Assembly (NCBI GenBank): GCA_034522055.1
Contig: JAXHLS010000002.1
Location: 186,001-250,000, forward strand
Reading direction: 5' to 3'
Source: Gammaproteobacteria bacterium
GTDB taxonomy: Bacteria; Pseudomonadota; Gammaproteobacteria; JAABTG01
DNA length: 64,000 nucleotides
How positions within the stretch are numbered: the stretch's first letter is position 1; every line of letters begins with the position of its first letter. Under the pieces are notes generated by a model. It was not told the origin of the DNA. It worked only from the letters and a program-made list of their open reading frames with translations, and did no database searches. Positions 13,325 to 45,996 of this stretch are shown here, in pieces. The position numbers were made by a program, and so were the translations under genes.

Positions 13325-14842
13325 ATGAATCCGTTCGTTGAACGTCACCAGAACAAGATCGCCGGTGTGCTCTCCTGTTTTGACCGGGTTGTCATCACCG
13401 GAACCCTTCCTGATATCGGTTATGCCGGCGCTATGGCGAGCTACCTCAGTTACCATAAGATCCGACTGTTCGACTACCCCCGGTGGGCAGAACCCCTGCG
13501 CGATGAGTTGCGCCACCATGCCGAGCAACTCGCCATCGAGGCCGGCATTGAGATCGAGTTCATCCGGCGCCACAAGGCCTTTCGCAAAGAAGACCGTATC
13601 AAGGCCATCATTGCGGAACGCGGCGGTCATCCCGGGCTGGTCCACATCTTCTCCGCCATGGAATCCTGCACCGCTTATCGCCCCTGGCATGACAAGAACA
13701 CAGGCCATACCCTGCTCAAACCCACGTCAGGGAAATGCCTGCATTACTACTTCTACTTCATCGATGAGGCCTTTGGACTCTGTTACGTGCGGGTGCCCAC
13801 CTGGGCGCCGTTCCGCCTGCAAGTCTACTTCAACGGCCATCACTGGCTGGCGCGCAGACTGGAAAAAGCCGGCATTCCCTTCGCGATGGCGGACAATGCC
13901 TTTCTGTCCATTGCCGATCCCGAGCAGGCTCAGACGCTTGCCGACCGGCTGGATGCCAAACAGCTTCACCGACGACTGAATCGATGGGCCAAACAGTTCT
14001 GCCCGGTAGCTCAGCGCTTTCGCTCCGGTTACCACTGGAGCTTGATGCAGGTGGAGTTCGCCACCGATGTCATCTTCCACCAGCAGGCCGAATTCCAGCC
14101 GCTCTACGAGTCCATCACCCGCACGGCGGTACAGGCCATTAAAGCCGACAATGTGGCCACCTTCCTTGGCCGTAAACTCGCCAGCACCTATCAAGGGGAG
14201 GTCGGTAACGATTTCAGCACCCGTATCCAGGGTACACGCATCCGCCACCAGATGGGGCCGGCCAGCATCAAACTCTACGATAAAGCCGGCATCATGGCGC
14301 GTGTGGAATGCACCACCAACGATGCCTCATTCTTCAAAATCCACCGCTGGGTGGAACAACGTGACGGCTGGCAACAGTGGAAACTGGCACCGCTACGCAA
14401 AAATATCTACAGCCTGCGCGATCTGCGCAAGCTGATGAACGCCGCCAATGAGCGCTATCTCGCCTATATGGCGGCAATCGACAATCCTGACGCCGGACTC
14501 AAGGACATCGATAAAATGTCCAGCCCCGCCAGGGACCAGGGCCGTTCATTCCGTGGCTTCAATCTGTTCCAGAAAAAGGACTATCATCTCTTCCTCGCCA
14601 TCGGGCGGGGCGAATGGTCAATCAGTGGCTTCCGTGCCGCCGATCTGCGGGCCTCTATGCCCGATCTATCACCCAGTCAATCATCCTATCTACTCAAACG
14701 GTTACGAACCCACGGACTGATCAAGAAAGTGGGACGTCGCTACAAGTATTACCTTACAAAGTTTGGGCGTCGCGTCCTGGCTGCATCACTCAAGATGCGT
14801 GAATATTGTGTTCTCCCTGCACTCTGTGCTGACAGGGCATGA
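13325..14842 (+). CDS. 505-aa protein of unknown function with C-terminal winged helix
   Basis: I do not recognise a named family. There is no signal peptide or membrane segment. The N-terminal region (FDRVVITGTLPDIGYAGAM, residues 19-37) and the centre (CLHYYFYFIDEAFGLCYVRV) look like a folded alpha/beta core. Residues about 312-340 hold IKLYDKAGIMARVECTTND, which recalls the YDK..RvE motif of phage and plasmid replication initiators. About residues 440-495 are a MarR-like winged helix (SPSQSSYLLKRLRTHGLIKK). ATG at 13325 has an AAGAGGGACAGG leader. It sits alone between heptamer arrays, with a hairpin on each side, as a single-gene mobile element would. A replication-initiator-like or transposase role is a guess. 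Confidence 0.75.
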   Translation: MNPFVERHQNKIAGVLSCFDRVVITGTLPDIGYAGAMASYLSYHKIRLFDYPRWAEPLRDELRHHAEQLAIEAGIEIEFIRRHKAFRKEDRIKAIIAERGGHPGLVHIFSAMESCTAYRPWHDKNTGHTLLKPTSGKCLHYYFYFIDEAFGLCYVRVPTWAPFRLQVYFNGHHWLARRLEKAGIPFAMADNAFLSIADPEQAQTLADRLDAKQLHRRLNRWAKQFCPVAQRFRSGYHWSLMQVEFATDVIFHQQAEFQPLYESITRTAVQAIKADNVATFLGRKLASTYQGEVGNDFSTRIQGTRIRHQMGPASIKLYDKAGIMARVECTTNDASFFKIHRWVEQRDGWQQWKLAPLRKNIYSLRDLRKLMNAANERYLAYMAAIDNPDAGLKDIDKMSSPARDQGRSFRGFNLFQKKDYHLFLAIGRGEWSISGFRAADLRASMPDLSPSQSSYLLKRLRTHGLIKKVGRRYKYYLTKFGRRVLAASLKMREYCVLPALCADRA

Positions 14843-32974: not shown

Positions 32975-33841
32975 TCAATCCCCGACGGAGGCCTCCAGAC
33001 CGCGCGCCTTGCGCGCCGTCCTGGCGGCGCGGGACAGGCCGTGGTCGAAGTCGTAGAGGGCCGACTCCCAGTGGCCGTACATGGGGTTGGGGAGGATGAT
33101 CCACTGGCGGCCCCAGCGCGCCCCGTGGCGCCGCACCAGGGCCCGGCGGGCCGCCGGGTCCTGCCGGGATCCGGCCACGAAGTCCTCCAGGTTGTCGCCG
33201 ACCAAAAGGAGGATGCGATGATGGCGGGCGATGCGCCGGCGCCACTCGTCCTTGGCACCACCATCGGCCATCAGCAGGTTGGTACCGTCCGCCGCCACGG
33301 GCAGTTCGAGGGCCTCGAGGTTGCGCCGCGTGCAGGTCCGCAGGGATTCCCGCCGGGCGGTGTAGAAAAACACCTCGACCCCGCGGGCCACCGCCTCCCT
33401 CAGAAACTCCCGCGCCCCCGGCACCGCCACAGCGGCGGACTCCTCGCACCAGGCGGCGAAGGTAGCGGGGGAATAGGCGCCGTGCTCGCGGATGATCCGC
33501 ACCTCGTAGGGCGTGTTGTCCAGCACCGTCTCATCGATATCCAGCACCACCGCCGGCGGCAGCCCGGTGGCATCCGCGGACTCCTCCAGGGCCGCGCTCC
33601 AGGACGGATCGGCGAGGGCCTGGGCCAGGCGGTGGGCCGCCAGCCGGTAGGTCTGGCGGGCCACCGCCTCGTACTCCGCCCCGAGGCGCTGCCAAACCAC
33701 GGCATCCAGCATCTCGTGGGGCTCCTGGTCCCGGGGCGGCCCGCCCACGGCGCAGCCCACCAGGGCCCCGGCCAGCAGCACGGGGAGCAGTCCCCCCAAC
33801 GACAGGGAGCGCGGGGCGTTACGAAGGTGACGGAGTCCCAT
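32975..33841 (-). CDS. class B-like acid phosphatase lipoprotein (HAD superfamily)
   Basis: A 288-residue lipoprotein with a lipobox ending ALVGC near residue 30. It matches the 5'-nucleotidase/acid phosphatase e(P4)-type HAD family: nucleophile motif VVLDIDETVLDNTPYE, motif II FFYTARRESLRTCTRRNLEA, and motif III/IV KDEWRRRIARHHRILLLVGDNLEDF. The end MYGHWESALYD is family-typical. It would remove phosphate from nucleotides or other organic phosphates in the periplasm. The start at 33841 has only a weak AGGACG box. Divergent from the dikinase gene, with 87 bp between. Confidence 0.92.
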   Translation of the reverse strand: MGLRHLRNAPRSLSLGGLLPVLLAGALVGCAVGGPPRDQEPHEMLDAVVWQRLGAEYEAVARQTYRLAAHRLAQALADPSWSAALEESADATGLPPAVVLDIDETVLDNTPYEVRIIREHGAYSPATFAAWCEESAAVAVPGAREFLREAVARGVEVFFYTARRESLRTCTRRNLEALELPVAADGTNLLMADGGAKDEWRRRIARHHRILLLVGDNLEDFVAGSRQDPAARRALVRRHGARWGRQWIILPNPMYGHWESALYDFDHGLSRAARTARKARGLEASVGD

Positions 33842-33928
33842 GGCGCGTCCTGGTAACGTTCTGGGTAAACGGTCGGAGAAGGGTCGTTTATTATGGCACC
33901 ATACCCTGCCACCCCACGAGGGCATCCC

Positions 33929-36844
33929 ATGATCCCTTTTACCGCCATCGCGACGGCCGCGCTCCTCGTCCTCAGCCCCCTCACTACTCCCGCCGCGGAC
34001 CCCGGCGACGGTGCCCTGCGGGCGGCCGTCGAGGCCATGAAGGCATCCGCCCGCGGGCCCTTCGCCCGTATCCGCTGGTTCTGCGCCGACGGCACCATCC
34101 TGCCCCCCGAGCCCTACGCCTGCCGGGAGCATGGTGGCGGCAGCCAGCACGGCGCATGGACGGACCGGGTGAAGACCATGCGGGACCAGGGCTTCCATAT
34201 CGCCAACGTCTATGCCGATCTGGACGTACAGGCCCTCCTGGCCCGTCCAGATGCGGCCGATGTCATCGGCCAGATGCTGGTGGAGAGGTATCTGATCAAC
34301 GTGGACCAGGGCTGGATTCTGCGCCGAGCCCGCTTCTATCGCGGCGCCCTCCAGGAAGAGGGCGAACGCCATGGCGCGCGCCGGCTGCTGCTGGCCCTGC
34401 TGGGCGACGAGTCCTGGCTCGAGCATCGCCAGGCCGTGCTGCGCGGCGCCGCGCGCCTGCTGCGCCATGGCCCCGAGACCGCCTCCATCGGCGACATGCG
34501 CCAGCTGGCCTTTAGCGTGGCGGCCCGTGATGAAGGCTTCACGGAACTGCGCAACAAGATCCATGGCCATCCCGATGCGGGCGACGTGGAACGGGTCAGG
34601 GAATATGCCGCGACCCACCGGGATCCTGCGGTCGCGGCCGATCTGGAGCGGCTGGTGGCGGTGCTGGAGGACATCTACGCCGCGGTCCCCGTGGCCCGGA
34701 CCCTGGGCCGCCTCGCGGCCGATCTCGAGGGCGAGGGCCACCTCGCCCGCACCCTGGCCGCGGCCGCCCGGCGCCTGGACCAGGCCACCGATCCCGCCCG
34801 GCGCCTGGCCATCAGCGCCGAGGTGCTGGCCGTCCTGCGCGACCATCTGGCCGCCCCTGCCAGGGCCGCCACCCGCCTGGAACTGCTGGCCGCCTCCCTC
34901 GCCCTCGAGGACGAGCACTTCACCGCCGCCACCGAGCTGCGGCAGGACCTCGACACCGCCGATCGCCGAGAGCGACTCGCCTGGCTGGCGGCCGGGATAG
35001 ACGCCGGTTACGGCACCGGGCTGTTCACGCCCCGCCAGCGCCGGGCCCTGCTGGATATCCTGGAGACGCTCGCGGCGGACGAGGTGTCCCTGGCCCGTTA
35101 CAAGGCCGCCCTGGATGATCTGGCCCTGGCCCCTGGCTGGGCCGCCCAGACCCTGCGCTTTCACTTCGGCGCGGCCGAGGAGACTCTGGCCCGCATCGAG
35201 CCCCTGGCCGCCCTGTTCAGCCAGGACGTACTGCGGGGCGGCCCGCTGTTGTTCTTCTCCCAGGTGATGAACGGCCTGCTGATGGATGCCAACCGGCTGG
35301 CCGGTATGCGCCACCGCTTCCTCGGGCAGGACATCGGCAGCGGCCTGCGGGGCCTCAATCCCGGCCTCGCCCGCGGCACCCTGTACCGGGCGGAGGCGGC
35401 CTCCGGCGGATCCTTCGACAGCGACGGTATCTATGTCCTCCCCGAGACCACCGCCGAGCTGCCCCCGGTGGCCGGCATCATCACCGCCGGCGAGGGCAAC
35501 CCCCTGTCCCACGTGCAATTACTGGCCCGCAACCTGGGGATCCCCAACGTCGCCGCCGATGCGGCCCTGGTGGCGCGACTCGAGCCCCTGGCGGGCCGCC
35601 GGGTGGTGCTGGCGGTCTCCCCCCGGGGCGTGATCCGGCTCGGAGCGGATGACGAACCGACAGGCACCGGGAGCGCCGCGTCGGACCACGACGTGGTCAT
35701 CCGCCCCGACCTGGAGAAACTGGACCTCGAAAATCGGAACCTTATGCCCCTGTCGCAACTGCGGGCCACGGACTCGGGCCGCACCGTGGGTCCCAAGGCA
35801 GCCAAGCTGGGGGAACTGCGCCACCACTTCCCGGAGGCGGTGGCCGACGGCCTCGCCATCCCCTTCGGCGTGTTTCGGGCGTTGCTGGACCAGCCCATGG
35901 AGACGGGCGGCCCCTCTGTGTTCGAGTGGATGGTGGACCAGTACCGGCAATTGGAGACCCTGCCCGCCGCTTCGGCGCAACGGCAGGCCCGCACCGAGGC
36001 CTTGCGTAAGCGCCTCCACGCCCGCATCGCCGGCGCCGAGCCCGGGCCCGCTTTCGCGGCGCGCTTGAAAGAATCCATGGCGCGGGTGTTCGGGCCCGAC
36101 GGCAGCTACGGCGTGTTCGTGCGCAGCGACACCAACGTCGAGGACCTGCCCGGCTTCACCGGCGCCGGGCTCAACCTCACGGTCCCCAACGTGGTGGGCG
36201 TGGACGCGGTGCTCGCCGCCATCCCCCGGGTCTGGGCCTCCCCCTTCACCGCCCGCGCCTTCGCCTGGCGCCAGCGCCACATGGAGGCCCCGGAGCACGT
36301 CTATCCGGCGGTGCTGCTGCTGCGCAGCGTGGCGGCGGACAAATCCGGCGTCATGGTCACCCGGGACGTGGACAGCGGCTCCCCGGACTGGCTCACGGTG
36401 GCGGTGAACCAGGGGGTGGGCGGCGCCGTGGACGGCCAGGCCGCAGAGTCCCTGCGCATCCATGTCCACAGCGGCGAGGTGCGGCTGATGGCGGCGGCCA
36501 CCGCCCGCGAGCGGCGGCTCATCGATGCGGCGGGCGGCGTGACCCGGGAGCGCGTCGCGGGTATCGAACCGGTACTGGAGCCGGATGAGATCCGGCAGCT
36601 CATCGCCTTCAGCCGCAGCCTGCCACAGCGCTTCCCGGCCATCGTGGACGACGAGGGCCATGCGGCGCCGGCGGACATCGAGTTCGGCTTCAAGGACGGA
36701 CAACTGCGATTATTCCAGATCCGCCCCTTCCTGGAGAGCCGGGGCACCCGCCGCAGCGCCCTGTTGAAGGCGCTGGACGCACGTATTAAGGACCTCGACG
36801 CCATCACCGTGGACATGACCGCCGCCCCCGGAGGAACCCCATGA
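33929..36844 (+). CDS. predicted exported PEP-synthase/glucan-water-dikinase-like protein
   Basis: A 971-residue protein with a signal peptide (MIPFTAIATAALLVLSPLTTPAA). Residues about 25-480 are helical and of unknown fold. The swivelling phosphohistidine domain lies at about 480-580 with His528 in GNPLSHVQLLARNLGIPNV. The ATP-grasp nucleotide-binding domain follows (SQLRATDSGRTVGPKAAKLG; VFVRSDTNVEDLPGFTGAGL; WASPFTARAFAWRQRH). A phosphohistidine domain before the ATP-binding domain is the order of glucan and phosphoglucan water dikinases, opposite to PEP synthase and PPDK. ATG at 33929 begins the signal peptide. Its stop overlaps the next gene. Export of an ATP-using enzyme is odd; the N-terminus could instead be a membrane anchor. 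Confidence 0.8.
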   Translation: MIPFTAIATAALLVLSPLTTPAADPGDGALRAAVEAMKASARGPFARIRWFCADGTILPPEPYACREHGGGSQHGAWTDRVKTMRDQGFHIANVYADLDVQALLARPDAADVIGQMLVERYLINVDQGWILRRARFYRGALQEEGERHGARRLLLALLGDESWLEHRQAVLRGAARLLRHGPETASIGDMRQLAFSVAARDEGFTELRNKIHGHPDAGDVERVREYAATHRDPAVAADLERLVAVLEDIYAAVPVARTLGRLAADLEGEGHLARTLAAAARRLDQATDPARRLAISAEVLAVLRDHLAAPARAATRLELLAASLALEDEHFTAATELRQDLDTADRRERLAWLAAGIDAGYGTGLFTPRQRRALLDILETLAADEVSLARYKAALDDLALAPGWAAQTLRFHFGAAEETLARIEPLAALFSQDVLRGGPLLFFSQVMNGLLMDANRLAGMRHRFLGQDIGSGLRGLNPGLARGTLYRAEAASGGSFDSDGIYVLPETTAELPPVAGIITAGEGNPLSHVQLLARNLGIPNVAADAALVARLEPLAGRRVVLAVSPRGVIRLGADDEPTGTGSAASDHDVVIRPDLEKLDLENRNLMPLSQLRATDSGRTVGPKAAKLGELRHHFPEAVADGLAIPFGVFRALLDQPMETGGPSVFEWMVDQYRQLETLPAASAQRQARTEALRKRLHARIAGAEPGPAFAARLKESMARVFGPDGSYGVFVRSDTNVEDLPGFTGAGLNLTVPNVVGVDAVLAAIPRVWASPFTARAFAWRQRHMEAPEHVYPAVLLLRSVAADKSGVMVTRDVDSGSPDWLTVAVNQGVGGAVDGQAAESLRIHVHSGEVRLMAAATARERRLIDAAGGVTRERVAGIEPVLEPDEIRQLIAFSRSLPQRFPAIVDDEGHAAPADIEFGFKDGQLRLFQIRPFLESRGTRRSALLKALDARIKDLDAITVDMTAAPGGTP

Positions 36845-38345: not shown

Positions 38346-39245
38346 TCAGTCGGCCCGTACCACCCGGGCGGGTACGACGAGGTCATGCAGGCGCCCGATG
38401 AGGCGGGTGAGCCAAGTTCCACCCCGTTCGTCGGCGGCCAGGGCGACGGCGATGTATTTGTAACCGCCGTCTTCCACCAGGGCGCTGTCGGCATGCCACT
38501 GGCGCCAGGTGCCCGATTTGCGGTAGATGCGCGCGCCGGGCCGGCTTTCCAGTCCCTTGACGAATTTATGACGTATGGCTGGCTCCCCCAGCAGGGACTT
38601 CATCTGGGCGCTGAGTTCGGCGTTCACCAGTTGGCCGGTCTCCAACAGGTAATAGAAACGCGCGGTCTGCATCACCGTGGCGCCGTGGGAAAGATTGTGA
38701 AGAGGGTCCCGCTGGTAGGCCGGGGACTTGGCGTATTCCTTGCCCACCCACAGGCCACCGTTGACCAGGGGGTCGTAGAGGCGGTAGGGCTCGGATTGCA
38801 GGATGTCCAACAGCCGTGTCCTGCCGACCCGGTTGAGTACCCGCGTGGCCTCCACATTGGATGACGTGCGGATCATGGCGGTGAGGGACTCGCGGGTGGC
38901 GCCGTCCAGTTCGAGAGTGCCGGCCTCCACCTCGACGAAAGCCCCCAGCAGGATGGCGATCTTGGGCAGGCTCGCGGCGTACATCATCTCATCGCCGTTG
39001 ATGGAGGCCACCCGGGGTTCGTGGGGATCGGTGATATCCACCAGGGCCACGGCGAGTTTCCGGCCGGCCACGGCATCGGCGAGCCTGAGGTCCACCAGCG
39101 CCGCTTCCAACCCCCGCTGCAGCCGGGGATCGAAGCTTTCCCGCAGGGGCGGGTAGTCGCCGCCGGGCGCATCCGCGCCCGCCGGACCGGCCATCACCAT
39201 GGCCAGGAAAAAAGTGGCTAGAATGGAAACCCTCCCCATGGGCAA
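38346..39245 (-). CDS. serine hydrolase, class A beta-lactamase-like (299 aa)
   Basis: A 299-residue exported hydrolase with signal peptide (MPMGRVSILATFFLAMVMAG, cleavage likely after GADA). Motifs are complete: Ser92-x-x-Lys95 in YAASLPKIAIL, SSN in MIRTSSNVEATRVL, and KSG in RIYRKSGTWRQW. It is shorter and more canonical than the 437-aa neighbour and lacks its insert. It is convergent with that gene and divergent from the NTT-like transporter. The role, perhaps in peptidoglycan or peptide metabolism, cannot be read from the sequence. Confidence 0.87.
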   Translation of the reverse strand: MPMGRVSILATFFLAMVMAGPAGADAPGGDYPPLRESFDPRLQRGLEAALVDLRLADAVAGRKLAVALVDITDPHEPRVASINGDEMMYAASLPKIAILLGAFVEVEAGTLELDGATRESLTAMIRTSSNVEATRVLNRVGRTRLLDILQSEPYRLYDPLVNGGLWVGKEYAKSPAYQRDPLHNLSHGATVMQTARFYYLLETGQLVNAELSAQMKSLLGEPAIRHKFVKGLESRPGARIYRKSGTWRQWHADSALVEDGGYKYIAVALAADERGGTWLTRLIGRLHDLVVPARVVRAD

Positions 39246-44760: not shown

Positions 44761-45000
44761 AGTTATCTGGCATGTTAGGTTTTTTGCCAGACACCGGGGA
44801 AGCCGTCCCGACCTGGAGGCAGGAAGTTTCTGACCTCGCGCGTAGATGGGCTCCCCGCCTCATTGCCGATTTCGAGGAGTATCGGGAAGCCAGCCTGGCT
44901 GGACTTCGTATCACAAGGTCGAACCGGCAAGAAATGCGAGGTCGGGGAACCGGTGATCAGTGTGACGCAACCGACCCCAGAAGGGAAAGGAGGAACAACG
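44760..45000 (+). ncRNA. candidate IS110 bridge RNA region (5' noncoding end)
   Basis: The 240 bp before the transposase carry strong stems (TCTGGCA..TGCCAGA at 44767-44790) and no convincing gene; the 89-residue frame here looks non-coding. IS110-type elements encode a target-guiding RNA in the 5' noncoding end, so this is where one would expect it. No loop sequences could be assigned. Confidence 0.3.
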
Positions 45001-45996
45001 ATGAGCGTTTATATCGGCATTGATGTCGCCGCACGCTCCTTCGACTTGCTCTGCCGTCGTGACGGCAAGAACAGTAAGGTCTACACCTTCCCACAGACTG
45101 CCCAAGGTCACGCCCAGGCGATCCGCAAGCTGCAGGCGCTGCAACCGGCGGGCATCGTGCTGGAGGCCACTGGCATCTACTACCTGGACCTCGCGCTGGC
45201 CCTGCACGAGGCCGGGCTGCCGGTGTCCGTGATCAACCCGCGCAGCTTCCGGCATTTCGCCGAAATTACGCTGCGCGGCAGTAAGACCGACCCGCTCGAC
45301 ACCGCCCTGTTGGCCGAATACGCCGAACGCATGACGCCTAGGCGCTGGACCCCGCCGCCATCGACCTATCGGGCCCTACGCGACTTCGGCCGGCATCTCA
45401 ACCGCCTAATGGACGCGCGGACCCAGGCCAAGAACCACCTGCACGCCCTGAAGGCGCAACGGGGCACGCCAGCCCTGCTGATCGAGGATGCCGAGGAAAG
45501 CATCGCTCAACTGGACCAACGCATCGAACGGGTGCAACAAGCGGCCCAGGACTTGATCCAGCAGACCCCCGAGCTGGCGCAACATCAGGCCCATCTCTGT
45601 GCCGCCACCGGCCTCGCGGCAGCCAGCAGCCTGGCTCTGCTGGCCGAGCTATCCACACTGCCCAGGGACCTGAAGGCCAAACAAGTCGCTCGTCATGCTG
45701 GGCTGGACGTGCGCCTGCATGAGTCGGGCTCTAGCGTCCATCGACCCGGGCGCCTAGCCAAGACCGGCAATGCCTACCTGCGTAGCGCCCTGTACATGCC
45801 AGCGATGGTGGCGATCGTGCATGACCCGTATGCCAAGGCGTTCTATAACGCTCTGGTGGCCCGGGGCAAAAAGCGGATCCAAGCCTTGTGCGCCGTCATG
45901 CGCAAGTACCTCACCGGAATCTGGGCCTGCATGCAGCATGATCAGCCTTTCGACTCCTCCAAGCTGTTTAGCGATCAGCATCTCCAAACCGCTTGA
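45001..45996 (+). CDS. IS110-family transposase
   Basis: A 331-residue recombinase. The RuvC-like DEDD domain has Asp7 (VYIGIDVAARSF), Glu60 region (GIVLEATGIYYLDLAL) and the double Asp in GSKTDPLDTALLAEYAERM. A coiled middle (IEDAEESIAQLDQRIERVQQ) leads to the C-terminal Tnp_20 domain with the serine region (ESGSSVHRPGRLAKTGNAYL, RSALYMPAMVA). ATG at 45001 has a GGAGGAACAACG leader. The frame is intact. IS110 elements often insert in REP palindromes; REP-like palindromes flank this one at 44727-44750 and 46048-46075. Confidence 0.94.
   Translation: MSVYIGIDVAARSFDLLCRRDGKNSKVYTFPQTAQGHAQAIRKLQALQPAGIVLEATGIYYLDLALALHEAGLPVSVINPRSFRHFAEITLRGSKTDPLDTALLAEYAERMTPRRWTPPPSTYRALRDFGRHLNRLMDARTQAKNHLHALKAQRGTPALLIEDAEESIAQLDQRIERVQQAAQDLIQQTPELAQHQAHLCAATGLAAASSLALLAELSTLPRDLKAKQVARHAGLDVRLHESGSSVHRPGRLAKTGNAYLRSALYMPAMVAIVHDPYAKAFYNALVARGKKRIQALCAVMRKYLTGIWACMQHDQPFDSSKLFSDQHLQTA

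Follow-up and report, generated by a model that had tools for sequence, protein, structure and literature searches.

The exported dikinase-like phosphotransferase DIK, two serine hydrolases of the Beta-lactamase2 family (BL2a and BL2b) and a transporter of the NTT/TLC ATP/ADP-translocase family (NTT) form a conserved four-gene module, which we describe here from the window, that is, the whole 64,000-nucleotide stretch of gammaproteobacterial DNA that was analyzed. This module suggests that ATP may be sent across the inner membrane for chemistry in a periplasm that is supposed to be free of it. More specifically, we lean slightly towards the view that DIK is a periplasmic, ATP-dependent phosphotransferase of the dikinase type, fed with ATP by the NTT encoded in the same module. 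To our knowledge, the textbook view is that there is no ATP in the Gram-negative periplasm. If our reading is true, it would mean that energy-dependent covalent chemistry takes place outside the inner membrane, in the form of a new way of modifying the envelope at the expense of exported ATP.

The DIK ORF (33929-36844, plus strand), which encodes 971 aa, is genuine and full length. Its start codon at 33929 is preceded, 6 nt upstream, by GAGGG, and there is no obvious ribosome-binding site for a longer in-frame ATG at 33893. The protein consists of a signal (residues ~1-24), a new N-terminal domain (residues 25-464, with Cys52 and Cys65 in it), a phosphohistidine swivel domain (residues ~465-578) bearing His528, and an ATP-grasp domain (PPDK_N, residues ~601-940) that contains K623, R732, T751, E918, Q930 and R932. 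Pfam places PEP-utilizers at residues 505-543 (E 2.3e-5, 24.3 bits vs. a cut-off of 23.1) and PPDK_N at residues 619-936 (E 5.4e-25, 88.8 bits vs. a cut-off of 27), the phosphohistidine domain thus indeed lying ahead of the ATP-grasp domain, as a preliminary description of this DNA had stated. PEP synthases and PPDK belong with DIK to a common superfamily of ATP-grasp and His domains, but they are cytoplasmic and their order is ATP-grasp, His, PEP. We rejected this identity for DIK, in which the His domain comes first and Pfam detects no PEP-binding domain. The source genome has one other match, an ordinary PEP synthase in which the domain order is reversed. DIK is a new architecture within a known superfamily.

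The integrity of the active site of DIK is well supported. H528, K623, R732, D734, E738, T751, E918, Q930 and R932 are invariant in 93 full-length relatives, which agrees with the catalytic role proposed earlier for His528. The equivalents of K623, R732, T751 and E918 (all 93/93) in rifampin phosphotransferase (RPH, known for example from Listeria, PDB 5hv1/5fbs) are the ATP-site residues Lys22, Arg117, Thr136 and Glu297, while His528 corresponds to His825; the Lys22Ala change abolished RPH activity (PMC4844700). The AlphaFold model of DIK is confident (pLDDT 86.4), and its residues 601-939 superpose on AMPPNP-bound RPH with a Z score of 34.7 and an rmsd of 2.1 Å over 308 residues, while residues 460-575 match the phosphohistidine swivel domain of RPH with a Z score of 10.0. 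Both proteins are devoid of the PEP/pyruvate TIM barrel. However, RPH, which inactivates rifampin, is ordered as ATP-grasp, RIF-binding and C-terminal His domains, whereas DIK runs from its new N-terminal domain through His to ATP-grasp, has a signal peptide and shares about 20% identity with RPH in the ATP-grasp domain. Taken with the invariant residues, this similarity makes it likely that DIK is active in ATP/His phosphotransfer.

The location of DIK is very likely periplasmic, judging by several features of the protein family. A hydrophobic N terminus was evident in all of the first 24 relatives inspected and is of the signal type in 92 of the 93, with a mean net charge of +1.85 before the hydrophobic segment and -1.10 after it, which is an N-in/C-out pattern. 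The signal peptide reported in the preliminary description is thus shared by the family, and no homolog clearly lacking it turned up, although such homologs were among the findings that the preliminary description had named as counting against it. Moreover, in 71 of the 93 relatives the mature protein, about 930 residues long, contains two cysteines and no more, and the C52/C65 pair is kept in 93/93 and 92/93 relatives, respectively. Having few cysteines, kept as a conserved pair, is what exported proteins do, in contrast to the PEP synthase of the same genome, which has 10 cysteines and no signal. One feature might speak for a DIK that is anchored by an uncleaved N-terminal helix with its enzyme part in the ATP-rich cytoplasm, and whose gene is linked to the others for another reason: the signal of the DIK in the window has few basic residues ahead of its hydrophobic stretch. 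We consider this arrangement extremely improbable in view of the charge pattern over 93 relatives, the two-cysteine composition with its conserved pair and the exported partners BL2a and BL2b. With its invariant His and ATP-site residues, its signal and its two-cysteine make-up, DIK resembles a live periplasmic ATP-dependent phosphotransferase. The preliminary description had seen three ways out of the difficulty of an exported ATP-dependent enzyme, namely a phosphate donor other than ATP, a cytoplasm-facing protein or another function, all of which are disfavored by the invariant ATP site, the N-in/C-out pattern and the linkage to NTT. Since these same features are found with clustered transporters of the ATP/ADP-translocase family, ATP may simply be exported to DIK.

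As for the N-terminal domain (residues 25-464), Pfam gave a single match for the window protein, below the cut-off of the family, and scattered weak matches only for the corresponding domains of 86 relatives. Its AlphaFold model has a pLDDT of 93.5, but Foldseek produced no match to it at E<=0.001 and a second structural aligner found only matches with Z<8, mostly helical bundles, so no function is readable from the fold, although the domain may have a relative that these comparisons did not recognize. The domain displays about 25 nearly invariant polar residues and would be the natural seat of the acceptor. Because it has no known relative, naming the phosphoryl acceptor is a guess, and ours is envelope material. 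In plant glucan, water dikinases (GWD), the His domain is followed by a C-terminal ATP-grasp domain, the same order as in DIK, and GWD and phosphoglucan, water dikinase also resemble DIK in the expected ATP to AMP + Pi chemistry. It was on the domain order that the preliminary description called DIK GWD-like, and this part stands, while a glucan acceptor has no support. GWDs are plastidic and have starch-binding modules, whereas DIK carries a signal peptide of bacterial type and an N-terminal domain unrelated to theirs, and its Pfam matches include neither a carbohydrate-binding module nor a GWD-specific domain; a glycan-binding fold that Pfam does not recognize could nevertheless be present. 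Nor did any glycan-active gene recur when the neighbors of DIK were clustered over 93 loci. That DIK is a GWD proper working in the periplasm on alpha- or other glucans is therefore very improbable, and we rejected this identity as unsupported apart from the domain order.

The genes next to DIK encode exported serine enzymes. BL2a (P0002; 36841-38154, plus strand), the start of which overlaps the DIK stop by 4 nt (ATGA), matches Beta-lactamase2 (E 4e-8) and has the motifs S120xxK123, S201xN203 and K338SG, together with a Cys345/Cys353 pair that is invariant among its relatives. This is the beta-lactamase-fold hydrolase to which DIK was said to be coupled, an observation that we extend since it had missed the second hydrolase and two TLC/NTT genes. 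The second Beta-lactamase2-family enzyme, BL2b (38346-39239, minus strand), exhibits the motifs S92LPK95, S128xN130 and K243SG. Signal sequences are found on both families, and the class A motifs SxxK, SxN and K[ST]G are invariant in 80 BL2a (with one S to T change in KSG) and 71 BL2b sequences. However, BL2b lacks a conserved base of the Glu166 type between SxN and KTG, which makes classical beta-lactamase activity unlikely, and the sole conserved Glu of this stretch in BL2a, E298, is close to KSG and not of the Glu166 type. BL2b would more likely perform acyl transfer, or act as a peptidase or esterase, on envelope material.

Two NTT/TLC ATP/ADP-translocase-family genes are found 2.4 kb downstream of DIK, and the source genome has no other NTT genes. 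The first, NTT (P0004; 39296-40558, plus strand), is transcribed away from BL2b across a gap of ~57 bp and matches the TLC ATP/ADP-transporter family PF03219 with an E value of 5e-16 (59.1 bits vs. a cut-off of 21). The second, NTT-HEAT (P0005; 40606-42891, plus strand), consists of a TLC-family domain (E 2e-10, 40.6 bits vs. 21) and HEAT-like repeats. The nearest solved structures to P0004 are two entries for ADP,ATP carrier protein 1, one of them chloroplastic, and a profile of the module-linked NTTs retrieved only ADP,ATP carriers from the PDB (E 3.6e-40). Among these module-linked transporters, 58 of 64 match PF03219 at E<=0.001. The other six, drawn in by the iterated NTT profile, are distant NTT-like MFS proteins and not TLC by Pfam, so adjacency counts based on this profile are slightly generous. 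Two NTT subfamilies, about 22-26% identical, occupy the same module position in different lineages, which argues that the module requires an activity of the NTT type. Our best reading is that the linked NTT probably supplies ATP to DIK.

A different cargo for the NTT has nevertheless to be weighed. DIK could be active in the periplasm while the linked NTT carries an acceptor precursor, NAD or another nucleotide or product, the phosphate coming from ATP scavenged outside the cell or from some other donor. The module NTTs are no more than remote relatives of ATP/ADP carriers (phmmer E 4e-8 between the P0004 branch and the nearest solved exchanger), some related NTTs outside the classical clade carry NAD and others failed in assays (PMC5381601), and micromolar ATP is present in the periplasm of E. 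coli, which has no NTT (PMC7432876). We nonetheless regard this combined alternative as unlikely, since all solved NTT relatives are ADP,ATP carriers and the ATP-grasp site of DIK, being fully conserved, calls for a nucleotide at the very place to which the linked transporter would bring one. Against ATP supply by NTT, it can also be said that at some loci the NTT is elsewhere in the genome, that the two NTT subfamilies are rather different and that free ATP would not last long in organisms rich in periplasmic phosphatases.

The neighbor of DIK in some Desulfobacterota loci is a fusion of a cyclic-nucleotide-binding domain with NTT-like/HEAT parts, an architecture already known (PMC5381601). 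For example, proteins of ~1050 aa with such parts and a C-terminal cyclic-nucleotide-binding domain adjoin DIK in two loci labeled Deltaproteobacteria (L117:6663-9821 and L121:6643-9807, both on the minus strand), which hints at cyclic-nucleotide control of the transporter.

The module is conserved in Desulfobacterota, Nitrospirae and several classes of Proteobacteria. Our scan of GTDB contigs returned >560 DIK relatives, the best 80 of which come from Gamma-, Beta- and Zetaproteobacteria, Desulfobacterota/'Deltaproteobacteria' and Nitrospirae, with single records labeled Myxococcales and Robiginitomaculum. Cultured genera with the module include Guyparkeria, Parahaliea, Halioglobus, Mariprofundus, Agaribacterium and Aestuariicella. 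When the ORFs in DIK neighborhoods were clustered, DIK was found in 93 loci, BL2a in 84, BL2b in 68 and NTT in 62. No further family recurred beside DIK to a comparable extent, the next genuine ones occurring in about 12 loci or fewer; the clusters ranked third and sixth, apparently out-of-frame ORFs lying over module genes, were excluded as families. At the 41 loci with at least 5 kb of flank on both sides, BL2a was within 5 kb of DIK in 39, BL2b in 33 and NTT in 29. Where genomes were examined because the DIK locus had no local NTT, an NTT was present elsewhere in 11/11.

The association between DIK and NTT is also apparent across whole genomes. In a class-wide sample of 274 genomes, 26 of which have the dikinase, an NTT was detected at E<=1e-5 in 22 of the 26 genomes with DIK vs. 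14 of the 248 without it (about 6%), with a Fisher p of 2.9e-19 that is indicative and not exact since the surveyed genomes are related. At a relaxed cut-off, 25 of the 26 have an NTT above the Pfam threshold, and in the remaining one an NTT-HEAT-like MFS protein adjoins DIK. As for the genomes with NTT but no DIK, five have strong matches to classical translocases, and several of these are small and seem to be of the parasite type. One genome (G038) was counted as lacking DIK because its contig (C390, locus L138) encodes BL2a-NTT-BL2b and ends exactly at the position expected for DIK.

These observations can be assembled into a mechanism. NTT would deliver cytoplasmic ATP to the periplasm and take up ADP, or AMP/Pi, in return. 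The ATP-grasp domain of DIK would then bind Mg-ATP and transfer the beta-phosphate to His528, with release of AMP + Pi, as in RPH, PEP synthase and PPDK, a step for which the residues were checked in DIK and the chemistry is taken from homology. The swivel domain would next move so that phospho-His528 could phosphorylate an acceptor held on the N-terminal domain (residues 25-464), probably a hydroxyl of cell-envelope material. BL2a and BL2b, as serine acyl-enzymes, would cleave or transfer acyl or amide bonds in this same material. Finally, AMP would re-enter via NTT or be dephosphorylated by a periplasmic nucleotidase. The complete scheme, in which NTT exports ATP in free-living bacteria, the exported dikinase phosphorylates the envelope via a phosphohistidine and two serine acyl-enzymes share the substrate, is one that we regard as evenly poised.

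The window contains a candidate for AMP processing in a lipoprotein gene (32975-33820, minus strand; lipobox LVGC) that is divergent from DIK and resembles e(P4)-type class C acid phosphatases/5'-nucleotidases; the interval given begins inside the ORF, and the true start is slightly upstream. This phosphatase could process AMP from the putative dikinase reaction. Relatives of it are also found beside the module in L056, L067, L112 and L123, as an optional neighbor.

The module could also be imagined to run in reverse. DIK would then use AMP, Pi and a phosphorylated compound, either extracellular or of the envelope, to form ATP in the periplasm, and NTT would import this ATP for energy or nucleotide salvage. 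PPDK is ATP-forming in bacteria and protozoa (PMC5371819), and ATP import is the classical role of NTTs (PMC5381601). We find this direction very improbable, for the closest fold is that of RPH, an ATP consumer, the energy of ordinary phosphoesters is too low for ATP synthesis, the hosts are mostly free-living, and the yield would presumably be poor at low external AMP.

The proposed ATP supply from the cytoplasm to an exported DIK has a counterpart in eukaryotes. Animal secretory-pathway kinases receive ATP that is transported into the Golgi/ER, and they share with the module the logic that ATP crosses a membrane for phosphorylation outside the cytoplasm, but they operate in eukaryotic organelles and their protein families are unrelated to those of the module. 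P0004 and P0005 resemble the NTT/TLC translocases of plastids, Chlamydia and Rickettsia in matching PF03219; characterized NTTs, however, mostly import ATP for intracellular parasites and plastids, whereas those of the module are from free-living bacteria and are linked to exported enzymes. NTTs have been reported in free-living bacteria without an assigned role (PMC5381601), and the route of ATP across the inner membrane into the periplasm has been called unclear, Gram-negatives not being known to encode an ATP-ADP translocase (PMC7432876). The module is thus a testable candidate answer to both questions, and ATP export, if shown, would be a categorically new bacterial system. The open-access literature yielded no description of a periplasmic dikinase, of an NTT and dikinase cluster or of exported ATP in free-living bacteria, which is weak evidence of novelty.

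Several minor observations concern the surroundings and relatives of these genes. DIK had no match in plasmid records, and PADLOC defense models had none to the five module proteins of the window. An IS110-family transposase gene (44863-45996, plus strand) is present a few kb downstream of NTT-HEAT, and a 505-aa ORF elsewhere in the window (13325-14842, plus strand) has no Pfam match at E<=0.001. One DIK homolog (L050, on G009:C52) is broken by an in-frame TAG, reflecting either decay or a sequencing error. A distant DIK paralog with about 31-34% identity and its own signal sequence is encoded at L054:5916-8945 (plus strand) beside a BL2b-like gene, in a genome (G174) that also has a standard DIK.
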